Shown: positions 10,451 through 25,749 of the stretch, one piece after another
Layout: each line of letters opens with the position of its first letter
Numbering within the stretch: the first letter of the stretch is position 1
Source: Acidobacteriota bacterium
Lineage (GTDB): Bacteria; Acidobacteriota; Thermoanaerobaculia; Multivoradales; Multivoraceae
NCBI GenBank assembly: GCA_003388555.1
Contig: QQVD01000001.1
Location: 1-64,000, forward strand
Reading direction: 5' to 3'
DNA: 64,000 nucleotides
Notes under the pieces: generated by a model
Seen by the model: only the letters and a program-made list of their open reading frames with translations
Databases searched by the model: none
What the model was told of the DNA's origin: nothing
Made by a program: the position numbers and the translations under genes

Positions 10451-11776
10451 ATGCAAGAGGGATACGTCGCCCGAGTCCTCGACCTGATCGACCCGTCGTC
10501 CCAGCGGCTCTACGCCGGGATGACCGTGGACGAAGCCGTCGCCATCCTCGCCAGCGAGGATCCGTCGCGGGTGCGCGAGATCGAGGGCTCGTTCGCTCTC
10601 GCCGCCCGGGTCGACGAGCGGGTGATCCTGGCCCGCAGTCTCGACCGCACCCTGCGCTACTTCCTGGCCAAGGAGGAGAGCGGGCCGATGCTCATCGTCG
10701 CCGAGCGCATCGACGAGATCCAGCGCCAGCTCGAGGAGCTCGGCTACGCCGACCAGTTCCATCCCTCCTACACCCGCATGGCACCGGCCCACCACACGGT
10801 GACGCTGCGGCTCATCGGCTGTCCGGATCCGAATCCCCGCTACCAGCGCTTCTTCACCCCCGAGCGCGAGGTCCTCGGCACCGATCTCGACGCCATCGGT
10901 GAGCGCTACGTCGGCGCCCTGCGCGCCGAGGTGCACAAGTGGCTCGACACCGTCGGCGGCAGCGAGCCGCTCGGGGTCTGCTTCTCCGGCGGCATCGACT
11001 CCGGCGCGGTGCTCATCGCCGCCTACCGGGCGTTGCTCGAGCGCGGCCAGTCGCCGGCCCGGCTCAAGGCGTTCACCCTCTCGGTGGGCGACGGCGGCGC
11101 CGACGCGGCACAGGCGCGCGAGTTCCTGCGCCGCTGCGACCTCGAGATGCTCGGCGAGGAGATCCAGGTGGCGTCGGAGCGGCTCGCCCCGCTGCGCGCC
11201 GTCGAGGTGATCGAGGACTACAAGCCGCTCGACGTCGAGTGCGCGACGGTGCTCCTGGCGCTGCTCGAGGGCATCCGCGAGCGCTATCCGCAGTGGCGAC
11301 TGCTGCTCGACGGCGACGGCGGCGACGAGAACCTCAAGGACTATCCGATCGAGGACAACAGCGAGCTGACGATCCGCAGCGTGGTGAACAACCTGATGCT
11401 CTATCAGGAGGGCTGGGGGGTCGACTCGATCAAGCACTCGCTGACCTACTCTGGCGGTCTGTCGCGTGGCACGGTGCGCACGCTCGCGCCGGCGCGGCGC
11501 CTCGGCTTCGAGGGCTTCAGCCCGTTCACCCGTCCGGCGCTGGTCGAGGTGGCAGAGGGCATCGACTTCGCCGCCCTGACCCAGGGCTCGCACGACAAGC
11601 TGTATTCGCTCAAGGGCGAGGTGGTGCGGCGCGGCATGCGGTCGGTCTACGGCCTCGACTTCCCGGTGTTCGAGAAGCGCCGCTTCCAGCACGGGGCGAT
11701 GTCCGGCGGCGTACCGGGCGAGGTGTTCGACGTCGATCCGGAGCTCTACCGTCGGCACTTCCTCGCCAGGTTCTGA
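10451..11776 (+). CDS. AsnB-like ATP-dependent amide ligase lacking a functional glutaminase half
   Basis: This 441-aa protein belongs to the asparagine synthase family. Residues ~185-430 form the synthetase domain, with the ATP-pyrophosphatase loop FSGGIDSG and the later LDGDGGDENL (GxGxDE-type) motif. The N-terminal ~130 residues keep only the second half of a class II glutaminase fold (GSFALAARVDERVILARSLD). The catalytic Cys2 that would follow Met1 is absent, the start reading MQEGYV. Such enzymes, like beta-lactam synthetase, use ammonia or an internal amine rather than glutamine. Start ATG 10451 has AGGAG 10 nt upstream. It is the first gene of a compact unit with a radical SAM and a halogenase-like gene. 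Asparagine synthesis itself is unlikely. Confidence 0.8.
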   Translation: MQEGYVARVLDLIDPSSQRLYAGMTVDEAVAILASEDPSRVREIEGSFALAARVDERVILARSLDRTLRYFLAKEESGPMLIVAERIDEIQRQLEELGYADQFHPSYTRMAPAHHTVTLRLIGCPDPNPRYQRFFTPEREVLGTDLDAIGERYVGALRAEVHKWLDTVGGSEPLGVCFSGGIDSGAVLIAAYRALLERGQSPARLKAFTLSVGDGGADAAQAREFLRRCDLEMLGEEIQVASERLAPLRAVEVIEDYKPLDVECATVLLALLEGIRERYPQWRLLLDGDGGDENLKDYPIEDNSELTIRSVVNNLMLYQEGWGVDSIKHSLTYSGGLSRGTVRTLAPARRLGFEGFSPFTRPALVEVAEGIDFAALTQGSHDKLYSLKGEVVRRGMRSVYGLDFPVFEKRRFQHGAMSGGVPGEVFDVDPELYRRHFLARF

Positions 11777-11843
11777 GACCCCGACCGCCGGCGCGGTGGC
11801 ATAGCCCGGAGCCCGACTCGGACCGGTGAGAGGCGAAGCACAG

Positions 11844-12923
11844 ATGGAGCCGGCGGAGCAGCGCCCGACAGCGGATCAGGTGGCGGCGCCCCGGCCCGCG
11901 CCCGATCCGTTCGCTCCCGTGCGCTGGGTCGCCGAGCGCGAGCGGGCGATGCTGCCGGGCGGCGCCCGCGAGGTGCGCAGCGCGACGCTCTTCCTGGTCG
12001 GGTCCGAGTGCCCCTTCTCCTGCACCTTCTGCGACCTCGGACGGCACACCCTGGGCAGGGCGGCGACGCCAGCCGGCGCGATCCCTCGCCAGATCGTCGG
12101 CGCCCTCGCGGCGATCGAGGCCTCCGGTGGCGGGCCCATGAACGGCCTGCACACGGTGAAGCTCTACAACGCCAGCAACTGGTTCGAGGAGCGGGCGGTG
12201 CCGGGTCGCGACGATGCCGCGGTGCTGGGGGCGTTGGCGGAGATCCCGCGGGTCACCGTCGAGTGTCATCCACGACTCGCCGTGAGCGGGCGGTGCGAGG
12301 CGTTCGCCCGCGCCCGTCGCGACGGTGGTGGCGAGCTGGAGATCGCGCTCGGGCTCGAGACCAGTCGGCCGGAGGTCTTCGCCCGCCTCGGCAAGGGCTG
12401 CGACCTCGGCCACATGGAGCGAGCGCTCCTCTGGCTCGCCGAGCGCCGCGTCGTCGTCCGGCTGTTCGTGCTCGTCGGCCTGCCGTGGATCGACGCCGGC
12501 GAACAGGTCGCGGCGGCGGTCGAGAGCGTCGGCTGGGCGGCGGCGCGGGGTGCCGCCTCGGTGTCGCTGATCCCTTTGCGCCCGACACCGCAACTGCGCC
12601 GGGCCGCCCGGGCCGCCCGGGCCGACGACGGCCGTGGCGGTCGTGGCGTGGCGCCGGTGTCGCTGGCCCTGTTCGAGGACGCCGTCGGCGCCGCCTGCGA
12701 GGCGTACGACGAGCGCTGGGGTGGACCTCTGGTGGTGCGTGCCGATCTCTGGGATCTCGACGCGTTGCCCGCGTGCCGACGGTGCGGTGCCCGGCGCCGG
12801 GCCGCGATGAGGCGGCGCGAGCGCCGCTCGCGTGGGTGGAGCGACGAAGAGGCGGCGTGCTGCGATCGCTGCCGCAGAGCGCTGCCGGGTGAGGCGCCCG
12901 CCGCCGCGGAGACGCGGTCTTGA
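11844..12923 (+). CDS. Radical SAM enzyme with C-terminal zinc ribbon, function unknown
   Basis: This 359-aa protein has the radical SAM cluster motif CPFSCTFC (CxxxCxxC) near residue 55, then the barrel segments KLYNASNWF, a GLETSRPEVFARLGKG helix typical of Elp3/MiaB-like radical SAM enzymes, and LVGLPWID. The C terminus carries CRRCG and CDRC pairs likely to bind zinc. The layout recalls TIGR01210-type (RaSEA-like) proteins, but an archaeosine role in a bacterium is not implied. The start is ATG 11844 with AGAGGCG upstream. The stop overlaps the next gene (TTGA). There is a local GCCCGG tandem repeat near 12600. Confidence 0.82.
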   Translation: MEPAEQRPTADQVAAPRPAPDPFAPVRWVAERERAMLPGGAREVRSATLFLVGSECPFSCTFCDLGRHTLGRAATPAGAIPRQIVGALAAIEASGGGPMNGLHTVKLYNASNWFEERAVPGRDDAAVLGALAEIPRVTVECHPRLAVSGRCEAFARARRDGGGELEIALGLETSRPEVFARLGKGCDLGHMERALLWLAERRVVVRLFVLVGLPWIDAGEQVAAAVESVGWAAARGAASVSLIPLRPTPQLRRAARAARADDGRGGRGVAPVSLALFEDAVGAACEAYDERWGGPLVVRADLWDLDALPACRRCGARRRAAMRRRERRSRGWSDEEAACCDRCRRALPGEAPAAAETRS

Positions 12924-14773
12924 GCCGCGCCCGCGGTGGCGCCGCTGTCGGTCCGGCGCCGGAGCGCAGCCCAGCCAGGCGCTATGACGTCGCGGTCATC
13001 GGCTCCGGCTTCGCCGGCTCGCTGGTCGCCTGGGGCCTGCAGCGCCAGGGACTGCGCACGGTGCTGCTCGAGCGCGGCGCCCACCCGCGCACGGTGCTCG
13101 GCGAATCGACCACGCCGCTGGCCAACCTGGCGCTCGAACGTCTGGCCGTGCGGCTCGACAGCGAGGCGCTGTGGAACCTGGCCGCGTGGGGACGCTGGCG
13201 GCGCCACGCCCCAGAGCTGCGCTGCGGCCTCAAGCGCGGCTTCTCGTTCTACCGTCACCGGCCCGGCGAGCCGCTGCGCGGCGCCGCCGCGGGCGGGTCG
13301 CGGCTGCTGGTCGCGGCGTCGCCCGACGACGAGGTCGCCGACACCCAGTGGGACCGCGCCGCGGTCGACGCCTTCCTCGTCGATCAGGCGGCAGCGGCAG
13401 GCGTCTGCTACCTGGACCGCACCGAGATCGGTGAGCTGGAAGTGGAGCACGCCAGCCAGGGTGGTGGCTGGTGCCTCGAAGCGCGACGACGCCTCGACGG
13501 CGATGGGCGTTCGCGGCGCGGAGAGACGCTGCGGCTGCGCGCCGGCTTCCTGGTCGACGCCAGCGGTGGCGGCGGCTTCCTCGAGCGGCGTCTCCGGATT
13601 GCCCGCGAGGCGCCGAGCGCCACGCCGCGCACCCACCTGCTCGCCAGCCATTTCGGCGGTGTCGAGCCGCTCGCCGCGGTGGCGGAGACCGCGGACGGGA
13701 GCACGCCGCCGTTCGACGAGACCTGGAGCGCCGTGCACCAGCTGATCGACGAGGGGTGGATGTACCAGCTGCGCTTCGACGACGGCTGGACCAGCGCCGG
13801 CTTCGTGCTGACCGGCGCCGATCGGATCGCCGGGACCGCTTCGTCAGGGGTCGCGGGAGGCAGCGCCGGCGAGCGGTTCGCGGCCCTCCTCCGGCGCTAC
13901 CCCAGCCTCGCGGCACAGTTCTCCGACGCCGCCAGCAGCGGACAGTGGTTCGAGGGCGCCGATCTCGCGTTCCGGCTGCGCCGCGCCCACGGTGCCGGCT
14001 TCCTGCTGCTGCCGCAGGCGTTCGCCTTCTTCGATCCTCTCTACTCCACCGGCATCGCCTGGTCGCTGCTGGCGGTCGAGCGGGTGCTCGACCTGTTCGC
14101 CGAGGGTCCGCCGCCAGCGGCAGCGCTCGAGCGCTACGGCGCCTTGCTCGAACGGGAGGCGGACCACGTCGACCGGCTGATCGGGTCGGCCTACCGCGCG
14201 ATGGCCATCGACCGCGATCGGCTGGTCGGGCCGGGCGGGGTCGAGACCCTGGCGCTCACCTCCCGCGTCTACTTCGTGGCGGCGAGCTTCCAGGAGACGG
14301 TGCAGCGACTCTTCGCGGCCGACGACCTCGCCTCGTCGGGGGTCGCCGCGGCGCCGCCGCCGGCTCGGGCGGACGGGAGCTGGGCCTGGCGGGGTCTGCT
14401 CGGCGCCGACGACGCTCTCCTCGCCGAAGCCGCACGTCGTTGGTACGAGCTGCTCGGCGAGGTCGTGCAGGCGGCCCGCGGGCAGGCAGGTCACGGTGGT
14501 CATCCGCGACTGCGCCAGGTATTGGGCGAGATGCTGGCGGCGCGCGACGTCGCCGGGCTGAGCACGGATCCCGAGGCGCGCTCGGTCGGCGTCGACCTCG
14601 AGGCGCTGGTGGGCGCCAGCGACCGGCTCGGCTGCGACCCGGCGACGGTGCGCTCGCTGCTGCCGCGGCTGCGCAGCGCCGGGTTCCCGGGGGGTGCGCG
14701 GGCTGCCGCTGCCGCGGCGCCTGCGGCGCCCGGCGAGCCGGTATCCGGGTCGCCTTCCGGCACCCGCCCCTAG
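12920..14773 (+). CDS. Flavin-dependent halogenase-like oxidoreductase
   Basis: This 617-aa FAD protein opens with a Rossmann motif, VIGSGFAGSLVAWGL. It continues with LGESTTPLANL (the GEST/GESxxP halogenase signature), Lys105 in CGLKRGFSF, which falls where the halogenase catalytic lysine is expected, and FFDPLYSTGIAWS (the DPLFSTG signature). The WxWxIP motif of tryptophan halogenases is not conserved: the matching place, residues 280-285, reads W-M-Y-Q-L-R. It is therefore either a halogenase with divergent chemistry or a related oxygenase/oxidase. It carries a long C-terminal helical extension. The TTG start overlaps the radical SAM stop by 4 nt. Confidence 0.8.
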   Translation: MSRARGGAAVGPAPERSPARRYDVAVIGSGFAGSLVAWGLQRQGLRTVLLERGAHPRTVLGESTTPLANLALERLAVRLDSEALWNLAAWGRWRRHAPELRCGLKRGFSFYRHRPGEPLRGAAAGGSRLLVAASPDDEVADTQWDRAAVDAFLVDQAAAAGVCYLDRTEIGELEVEHASQGGGWCLEARRRLDGDGRSRRGETLRLRAGFLVDASGGGGFLERRLRIAREAPSATPRTHLLASHFGGVEPLAAVAETADGSTPPFDETWSAVHQLIDEGWMYQLRFDDGWTSAGFVLTGADRIAGTASSGVAGGSAGERFAALLRRYPSLAAQFSDAASSGQWFEGADLAFRLRRAHGAGFLLLPQAFAFFDPLYSTGIAWSLLAVERVLDLFAEGPPPAAALERYGALLEREADHVDRLIGSAYRAMAIDRDRLVGPGGVETLALTSRVYFVAASFQETVQRLFAADDLASSGVAAAPPPARADGSWAWRGLLGADDALLAEAARRWYELLGEVVQAARGQAGHGGHPRLRQVLGEMLAARDVAGLSTDPEARSVGVDLEALVGASDRLGCDPATVRSLLPRLRSAGFPGGARAAAAAAPAAPGEPVSGSPSGTRP

Positions 14774-24600: not shown

Positions 24601-25749
24601 ATGAGTGGCCTGCGCTTCTCGGTCTCCTCGACAGAGGGTACGGCGCGCCGAGGAGTGCTGGTCACGCCTCACGGCGAGGTGCAGACGCCCGCCTTCATGC
24701 CGGTCGGCACCCTCGGGGCGGTCAAGGGCCTGGGGCCCGAAGCGCTCGAGGAGTGTGGCGCGCAGGTCATGCTCGCCAACCTCTACCACCTGACGCTCAG
24801 ACCGGGGATCGAGCGCATCGCCGAGCTCGGGGGGATCCACGCCTGGACCGGTTGGCGAGGTCCGATCCTCACCGACAGCGGTGGCTTCCAGGTCTTCTCG
24901 CTCGGCGACCTGCGCCAGATCGACGAGCAGGGGGTGCGGTTCCGCAGCGTGCACGACGGCAGCCGGCTGCGCTTCACCCCCGAGTCGGTGGTGGCGTCGC
25001 AGGCCTTCTTGGGGGTCGACGTGGCGATGGTCCTGGACGAGTGTCCGCCATGGCCGATCGGCGAGGCCGAGGCGGAGTCGGCGCAGCAGCGGACCCATCG
25101 CTGGGCGGTGCGGTCGCTGGAGGAGCGGAGTCGCCACGACGACTGGCCGGGCGCCCTCTTCGCCATCGTCCAGGGCAGCTTCTACCCCGAGCTGCGGGCT
25201 CGCGCGGCGAGTGAGCTGGCGGCGTTGCCCTTCGACGGCTTCGCGATCGGCGGCGTCTCGGTGGGCGAGGAGAAGTCGCTGGGTCGCGCCGTCGTGTCGC
25301 AGATCGCTCCGGGCCTGCCGGCCGACCGTCCGCGCTACCTCATGGGGGTCGGAACGCCGGCCGACATCGCCTTCGCCGTGCGGCACGGTGTCGACCTCTT
25401 CGACTGCGTGCTGCCCTCGCGCAACGCGCGCCACGGCACTCTGTTCACCAGCGGCGGGACGCTGCGGATCAAGAACGCCCGCTTTGCCACCGACCCGAGA
25501 CCGGTCGATCCGGAGTGCTCGTGCGTGTGCTGCCGGCGGGTGAGCCGGGCGTTCCTGCACCACCTCTTCCGCAGCGGCGAGATCACCGCCAAGGTCCTGG
25601 CGACGGCCCACAACGTCCGCTTCTTTCTTGACTTTGTAGGGCAACTTCGCGAAGCTCTCGCGTCCGGCTGTCTTGCGGCCACGGTGGACGACTGGATCGC
25701 CCTCTACGACGACGAGAGCCCGACCTCCTCGTCGAGCGAAAGCTGTTGA
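24601..25749 (+). CDS. tgt: Queuine/preQ1 tRNA-guanine transglycosylase
   Basis: Tgt replaces G34 of GUN-anticodon tRNAs with preQ1. The 382-aa protein has the barrel signatures PVGTLGAVKG, LTDSGGFQVFSLG (nucleophile and base-recognition region), IVQGSFY, GGVSVGEEK and DCVLPSRNARHG (catalytic Asp). The zinc site is CSCVCC plus a later His. The start ATG 24601 is preceded by GGAGG with 5-nt spacing. It is followed by yajC, secD and secF, a very common order. Confidence 0.96.
   Translation: MSGLRFSVSSTEGTARRGVLVTPHGEVQTPAFMPVGTLGAVKGLGPEALEECGAQVMLANLYHLTLRPGIERIAELGGIHAWTGWRGPILTDSGGFQVFSLGDLRQIDEQGVRFRSVHDGSRLRFTPESVVASQAFLGVDVAMVLDECPPWPIGEAEAESAQQRTHRWAVRSLEERSRHDDWPGALFAIVQGSFYPELRARAASELAALPFDGFAIGGVSVGEEKSLGRAVVSQIAPGLPADRPRYLMGVGTPADIAFAVRHGVDLFDCVLPSRNARHGTLFTSGGTLRIKNARFATDPRPVDPECSCVCCRRVSRAFLHHLFRSGEITAKVLATAHNVRFFLDFVGQLREALASGCLAATVDDWIALYDDESPTSSSSESC

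Follow-up and report, generated by a model that had tools for sequence, protein, structure and literature searches.

What do three tightly packed genes, encoding an AsnB-like ligase, a radical S-adenosylmethionine (SAM) enzyme and a halogenase-like flavoprotein, do together in the genome of an Acidobacteriota bacterium? The genes lie at positions 10451-14773, on the + strand, of the window, by which we mean the whole 64,000-nucleotide stretch of contig QQVD01000001.1 (assembly GCA_003388555.1) that was analyzed. The genome comprises 6.8 Mb in 74 contigs and carries the radical SAM gene in single copy. A check of the open reading frames (ORFs) found all three open and arranged as an earlier note on this DNA had described them, in a rightward unit with a gap of 67 nt between the ligase and radical SAM genes and an overlap of 4 nt (TTGA) between the radical SAM and flavoprotein genes. 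That the three proteins of this trio form one functional unit is well supported by the genome comparisons reported below. We tentatively propose that the unit is one dedicated three-enzyme pathway for the biosynthesis of a small molecule, combining amine-carboxylate ligation, radical C-N cleavage and aromatic halogenation (or hydroxylation).

The trio is linked and co-occurs in several phyla

The radical SAM gene is present in 48 of 72 genomes of the window's order. Among the 20 genomes of this order that were fetched with their flanks, 18 show the three genes one after another in this arrangement, as a rule -4 to +70 nt apart, and the flanking genes mostly differ outside the window's family. 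Order and close spacing are also kept in most genomes fetched from other Acidobacteriota, where -4 overlaps are frequent. When one genome per species was scanned, at least 551 ligase loci came to light. The cross-phylum counts of linkage refer to the best 80 of these at least 551 loci and to long contigs; the 80 come from Acidobacteriota, Gemmatimonadota, Planctomycetota, Verrucomicrobiota, one complete Rhodothermota genome and a few otherwise-labelled contigs. The trio is linked on 19 of 20 long contigs of Acidobacteriota, all 14 of Gemmatimonadota, 10 of 20 of Planctomycetota and none of 11 of Verrucomicrobiota. Acidobacteriota, Gemmatimonadota, Planctomycetota and Rhodothermota usually carry it as a single operon. 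In Verrucomicrobiota the three genes mostly lie apart but share a genome, and in many Planctomycetota they are likewise dispersed.

The presence of the three genes in the same genomes was followed in 396 Acidobacteriota genomes. The ligase is encoded in 38 of them, and a strong match to the radical SAM protein was found in exactly these 38 and in none of the 358 genomes without the ligase, two of the other genomes giving weak matches (82-87 bits). The halogenase is present in 36 of the 38 ligase genomes and in two ligase-less genomes. The co-occurrence gave Fisher's test values of 6e-54 by genome and 5e-26 by genus, neither corrected for phylogeny. Outside Acidobacteriota, 18 genomes were picked, mostly for lacking one or more of the partner genes next to the ligase. 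All 18 encode the radical SAM protein and 16 a full-strength halogenase, in many cases on a different contig. The three proteins also diverge together, as the pairwise distances between them correlate with r = 0.88-0.93 (44 loci and the window). Conservation, co-occurrence and co-divergence are thus direct results. Conserved order and spacing across families and phyla, together with co-occurrence, rule out chance neighbours; conserved order and co-occurrence likewise bear out the earlier suggestion of a functional unit of natural-product or modification type, which had been made to depend on the genes being regular neighbours in relatives, as they are. By contrast, the accompanying idea of an inserted or lineage-specific pathway does not survive, because the trio is found in at least five phyla and the ligase at no fewer than 551 loci.

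A quick tree of the ligase was mostly structured by phylum, with the window's order separate from other Acidobacteriota orders; exceptions to this structure may be transfers or mislabelled bins. The presence of the trio in at least five phyla, with dispersed yet co-occurring genes in Verrucomicrobiota and many Planctomycetota, suggests an old pathway that was patchily kept, often lost and partly exchanged. The 214 pattern matches obtained from viral contigs include no sequence that codes for a relative, and a search of plasmids gave no match. One locus labelled Deltaproteobacteria (L105; JAHZIX010000039.1) has a ligase that groups with those of Acidobacteriota, so that its label is probably wrong, and the labels of two loci assigned to Akkermansia muciniphila (L146 and L160) may be wrong too.

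The ligase resembles AsnB and lacks the glutaminase nucleophile

The assignments of the earlier note (AsnB-like, radical SAM, halogenase-like) held in family and profile searches. All three proteins score below the curated cut-offs of named families. Nor is any of them a member of a family whose assigned role is unrelated, which the note had named as grounds for abandoning its grouping. Each is a new branch of a known superfamily, in a combination that appears undescribed.

The first gene (10451..11776, + strand; 441 aa, ATG start) encodes an AsnB-like ATP-dependent ligase that matched Pfam Asn_synthase at 3e-12. All 62 members of its family match TIGR01536, weakly (best 6.8e-16), and the window's ligase, at 42 bits, stays far below the curated cut-off of 267 bits. 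Four ordinary AsnB homologues score above this cut-off elsewhere in the same genome, consistent with the earlier view that none of the three genes has a housekeeping role. Identity to the ligase is 61-72% within the window's order and 53-60% in other Acidobacteriota orders, with one distant member at 44%, and the ligase is far more conserved than its radical SAM and flavoprotein partners.

The predicted structure of the ligase (predicted local distance difference test score, pLDDT, 88.5) matched beta-lactam synthetase (1m1z) with Z 25.8 (3.8 A, 362 residues), tied with human ASNS (Z 25.1), and carbapenam synthetase (1q19) with Z 22.3. The model is consistent with a synthetase fold bearing a dead N-terminal nucleophile (Ntn) domain. 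The structural match begins at residue 31-41 of the ASNS and beta-lactam synthetase structures, indicating that the N-terminal catalytic Cys of the glutaminase is missing, and when the profile was compared with those of three AsnBs encoded elsewhere in this genome, the alignment started only from AsnB residue 94. The label "glutaminase-less" given earlier is therefore right as to the catalytic Cys and too strong as to the domain, of which an Ntn-like remnant (about residues 1-140) is retained. The ligase thus shares with beta-lactam synthetase and AsnB the two-domain fold and the PP-loop, and differs from both in lacking Cys1 and the beginning of the Ntn domain.

In this superfamily the PP-loop binds the pyrophosphate of ATP. 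The loop of the ligase reads SGGIDS (residues 179-184; 10985..11002, + strand), and S179, G180, G181, D183 and S184 are invariant in 62 members. A second motif, DGDGGDE (residues 287-293; 11309..11329, + strand), aligns with the SGEGSDE motif of AsnB that contains the general base Glu348. Asp289, at the Glu348 position, is invariant in the ligase alignment (A7); one distant relative has Glu. In beta-lactam and carbapenam synthetases this position holds a catalytic Tyr (Tyr348 in beta-lactam synthetase), which the ligase does not have, so that the residue here is neither the Tyr of the one nor the Glu of AsnB. The invariant Asp argues against a ring closure of the beta-lactam type and for an AsnB-like reaction that would be intermolecular, ammonia or an amine being the partner.

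The radical SAM enzyme is nearest to RaSEA and QueL

The second gene (11844..12923, + strand; 359 aa, ATG start, with an alternative GTG start at 11826) encodes a radical SAM enzyme of the RaSEA/QueL group. Its CxxxCxxC motif (C56, C60 and C63; 12009..12032, + strand), which provides the ligands of the [4Fe-4S]-SAM cluster, is invariant in 53 of 53 members. A C-terminal CxxC...CxxC motif (C311, C314, C340 and C343; 12774..12872, + strand), likely a zinc ribbon or a second cluster, is at least 90% conserved and lost in some members. All 53 members match the RaSEA family TIGR01210 (best 7e-32), the next family being matched by 20 members at 1.5e-6. The window's protein scores 23.5 bits against a curated cut-off of 212 bits. 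No protein of the 396 Acidobacteriota genomes attains this cut-off, in contrast to three archaeal controls (M. jannaschii, H. volcanii and M. acetivorans). Among PDB profiles the top match was queuine lyase QueL (6p78; E 6e-4, the next being 0.2), which also headed the fold matches in a tie with BioB, HydE and NifB, and the two proteins have the motifs N-x-S-x-FF, E-x-H, G-x-E-T and LNK in common. Unlike QueL, an enzyme of queuosine salvage, the radical SAM protein has an invariant K106 and is accompanied by a ligase and a halogenase.

Both the RaSEA and the QueL reaction sever a C-N bond adjacent to the deazaguanine substituent. RaSEA turns preQ0-Lys, the lysine adduct made by ArcS, into archaeosine (PMC11298593), and QueL regenerates preQ1 from queuine (PMC11570991). 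By its sequence, the radical SAM enzyme of the trio would cleave a C-N bond as these 7-deazaguanine-acting enzymes do.

As the nearest characterised enzymes both act on 7-deazaguanine derivatives, the trio itself might act on queuine, preQ1 or 7-carboxy-7-deazaguanine, whether free or in tRNA or DNA, with a lyase like QueL or RaSEA and a ligase that amidates the 7-carboxylate. We regard this as very doubtful. Genomes of the window's order do have tRNA-guanine transglycosylase (TGT) without full-length QueC, as in salvagers of queuosine precursors, where a QueL-like lyase would be useful; but TGT is also present in trio-less relatives of the order (G011 and G015), the trio is found in some QueC-bearing genomes too, and a halogenase has no known role in this chemistry. 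Of the trio genomes of the window's order, 14 were tested and none had a full-length QueC; G449 had none either. This argues against preQ0 made de novo as the substrate of the trio there, but a salvaged precursor may still serve. PTPS-family (QueD family) proteins were present in 32 of 32 genomes tested and hence do not discriminate. The window itself contains tgt (24643-25707), and no full-length QueC was found in its genome. Since tgt is present and full-length QueC was not found, this genome and the tested trio genomes of its order probably only salvage queuosine precursors.

The flavoprotein belongs to the PltM/CtcP branch

The third gene (12920..14773, + strand; 617 aa, TTG start) encodes a protein like flavin-dependent halogenases of the PltM/CtcP branch. 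Profile comparison with the PDB placed PltM (7e-83) and the tetracycline 7-halogenase CtcP (3e-79) far above all else. The flavoprotein is similar to these enzymes over its whole length, including GxGxxG, HPRFxxGES, DPLFSxG and the catalytic Lys, and differs from them in an altered WxWxIP motif, in its partner enzymes and in having no adjoining polyketide genes. The catalytic Lys corresponds to K105 (codon 13232..13234, + strand), which aligns with PltM Lys87 and is invariant in 35 members; the K87A variant of PltM is inactive (PMC6424973). Because of the PltM/CtcP matches and the invariant K105, our first guess is that the flavoprotein halogenates an electron-rich, probably phenolic, ring, with hydroxylation as the second.

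The same pathway could thus contain a hydroxylase or oxidase and yield a product that is not halogenated, which we consider somewhat unlikely. Members of the family also give scores with monooxygenases and reductases, and WxWxIP is inexact, reading GWMYQLRF in the window and GWIWVLRF in other orders (majority of alignment A6); against this stand the invariance of the PltM catalytic Lys in the 35 members and profile scores that single out PltM and CtcP. Close homologues of the halogenase in the two ligase-less genomes mentioned above, neither of which has the trio (L259 in G400 and L260 in G440), adjoin giant ORFs that look like polyketide synthases. Ligase-radical SAM pairs without an adjoining halogenase were seen at loci L082, L095 and L044.

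A proposed three-step pathway

For the small-molecule pathway, we infer the order of the steps and the kind of substrate from the characterised relatives of the three enzymes. In the first step, the AsnB-like ligase would adenylate a carboxylic acid with ATP and join it to an amine, which would be free ammonia or an amino acid, because the ligase cannot take ammonia from glutamine. In the second step, the RaSEA/QueL-like enzyme would generate a 5'-deoxyadenosyl radical and cleave a C-N bond in the conjugate. As a special case, the amino acid may serve as the nitrogen donor, its carbon part being removed by the radical SAM enzyme, as with lysine in the ArcS and RaSEA pair. In the third step, the PltM-type flavoenzyme would chlorinate or brominate, or less likely hydroxylate, an aromatic ring, probably a phenolic one, in the substrate or product.

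Two described systems resemble parts of this scheme. Archaeosine synthesis in Euryarchaeota also pairs a RaSEA-type radical SAM enzyme with an amine-attaching enzyme, ArcS, but the trio is bacterial, has an AsnB-like, ATP-dependent ligase and includes a halogenase; moreover, its score against TIGR01210 is far below the cut-off, and no full-length QueC was found in the window's order. The ammosamide pathway likewise combines flavin halogenation (Amm3) with a proposed amidation of an aromatic acid by an AsnB-like enzyme (Amm20), but uses a peptide scaffold, peptide aminoacyl-tRNA ligases (PEARLs) and many more genes; its Amm10 resembles radical SAM enzymes but lacks the typical cysteine-rich motif (PMC12715798). 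In the literature searched, this was the only paper to mention all three types of enzyme. A different parallel, which supports the special case, came from alignment A5, with which we found RaSEA-like genes in two trio-less Acidobacteriota, G076 and G246 (L257:6377-8927 and L258:7588-10881). Both adjoin ATP-grasp ligase-like genes, the two ORFs of L257 overlapping by 20 nt. The pairing of a RaSEA-like enzyme with an ATP-dependent ligase therefore recurs with a different ligase fold, and these loci are possibly a second class of pathway built from a ligase and a radical C-N lyase.

Several observations weigh against the proposed pathway. The fold of the radical SAM enzyme matches QueL 6p78 with Z 16.9, tied with BioB (16.7) and HydE (16.4), and NifB matches as well, so that fold comparison does not separate these enzymes and the case for C-N cleavage comes from the sequence profile. 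The WxWxIP motif of halogenases, as described above, is not kept. Two genomes (G167 and G238) have the ligase and radical SAM enzyme without this halogenase family, and G030 has no halogenase beside its ligase-radical SAM pair, suggesting that the third step is dispensable or replaceable there. Finally, the ATP-grasp parallel consists of two loci, and further candidates (L261 and L262) do not show it.

Because the genes of Verrucomicrobiota co-occur without being linked, the cell probably makes the product for its own needs, and not as a clustered antibiotic of the ordinary kind. A bolder version, which we think unlikely, is that the trio makes a widespread core-type metabolite or cofactor of five phyla (Acidobacteriota, Gemmatimonadota, Planctomycetota, Verrucomicrobiota and Rhodothermota) through a new way of amidating, in which amino-acid ligation and radical C-N cleavage would replace glutamine, and then halogenates it for its own use.

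In the literature searched we found no description of the trio as a system, in agreement with the earlier note; subscription papers were largely outside that literature, which makes this weak evidence of absence. Near-perfect co-occurrence in at least five phyla with no described product marks a clear gap in bacterial metabolism. If amidation is completed by radical C-N cleavage, the chemistry of archaeosine would extend to bacteria with a new ligase partner, and if the flavoenzyme halogenates, many common soil and freshwater bacteria would make an unknown organohalogen. Alignments A7-A9 define the families well enough for direct tests, and Roseithermus sacchariphilus and Limnoglobus roseus are culturable carriers.

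Neighbouring genes and the search for a peptide substrate

Among the enzymes of pathways for ribosomally synthesized and post-translationally modified peptides (RiPPs) are AsnB-like cyclases, radical SAM enzymes and flavin enzymes, and the trio might accordingly modify a peptide or protein encoded elsewhere, in the manner of QhpD/QhpG or of the AsnB-like lasso cyclases. The flavoprotein is weakly similar to the maturases QhpG, GoxB and LodB (NCBIfam), and a weak match to a macrolactam cyclase was found for 2 of 62 ligases. The neighbourhood speaks against such a role: no conserved ORF of 22-120 aa was found within 2 kb of the trio at about 115 loci, extending to relatives the earlier remark that no precursor-peptide gene lies nearby, and neither a protease nor a transporter gene is a constant neighbour of the trio from phylum to phylum. 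Moreover, the radical SAM enzyme is of RaSEA type, and only one match to a peptide-modifying (SPASM) family was seen, at 9e-4. Peptide modification is thus quite unlikely in our view. Small ORFs that recurred near the trio were rejected, having been traced to the strand opposite tmk and other flanking genes.

Judged from the translations, the genes to the left of the trio, on the opposite strand, are pilT- and pilC-like type-IV-pilus genes and a two-component pair, and those to the right are tmk, a gene like that for DNA polymerase III delta', and genes for a DsbA-like protein and a nitroreductase. A comparison of neighbours across loci revealed no fourth pathway gene conserved beside the trio across phyla. 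We rejected tmk, holB, the pil genes and the DsbA-like and nitroreductase genes as pathway partners, their adjacency being lineage synteny; other recurrent neighbours belong to generic families. Genes for UnbV_ASPIC/FG-GAP proteins adjoin the trio in many Gemmatimonadota loci and in Limnoglobus (L110:15424-16461, L119:5468-7210 and L157:16062-18068), often convergently in Gemmatimonadota, where five loci also have an NQR2/RnfD-like (UnbU-type) gene next to the trio; such genes being common, this may be chance or synteny.

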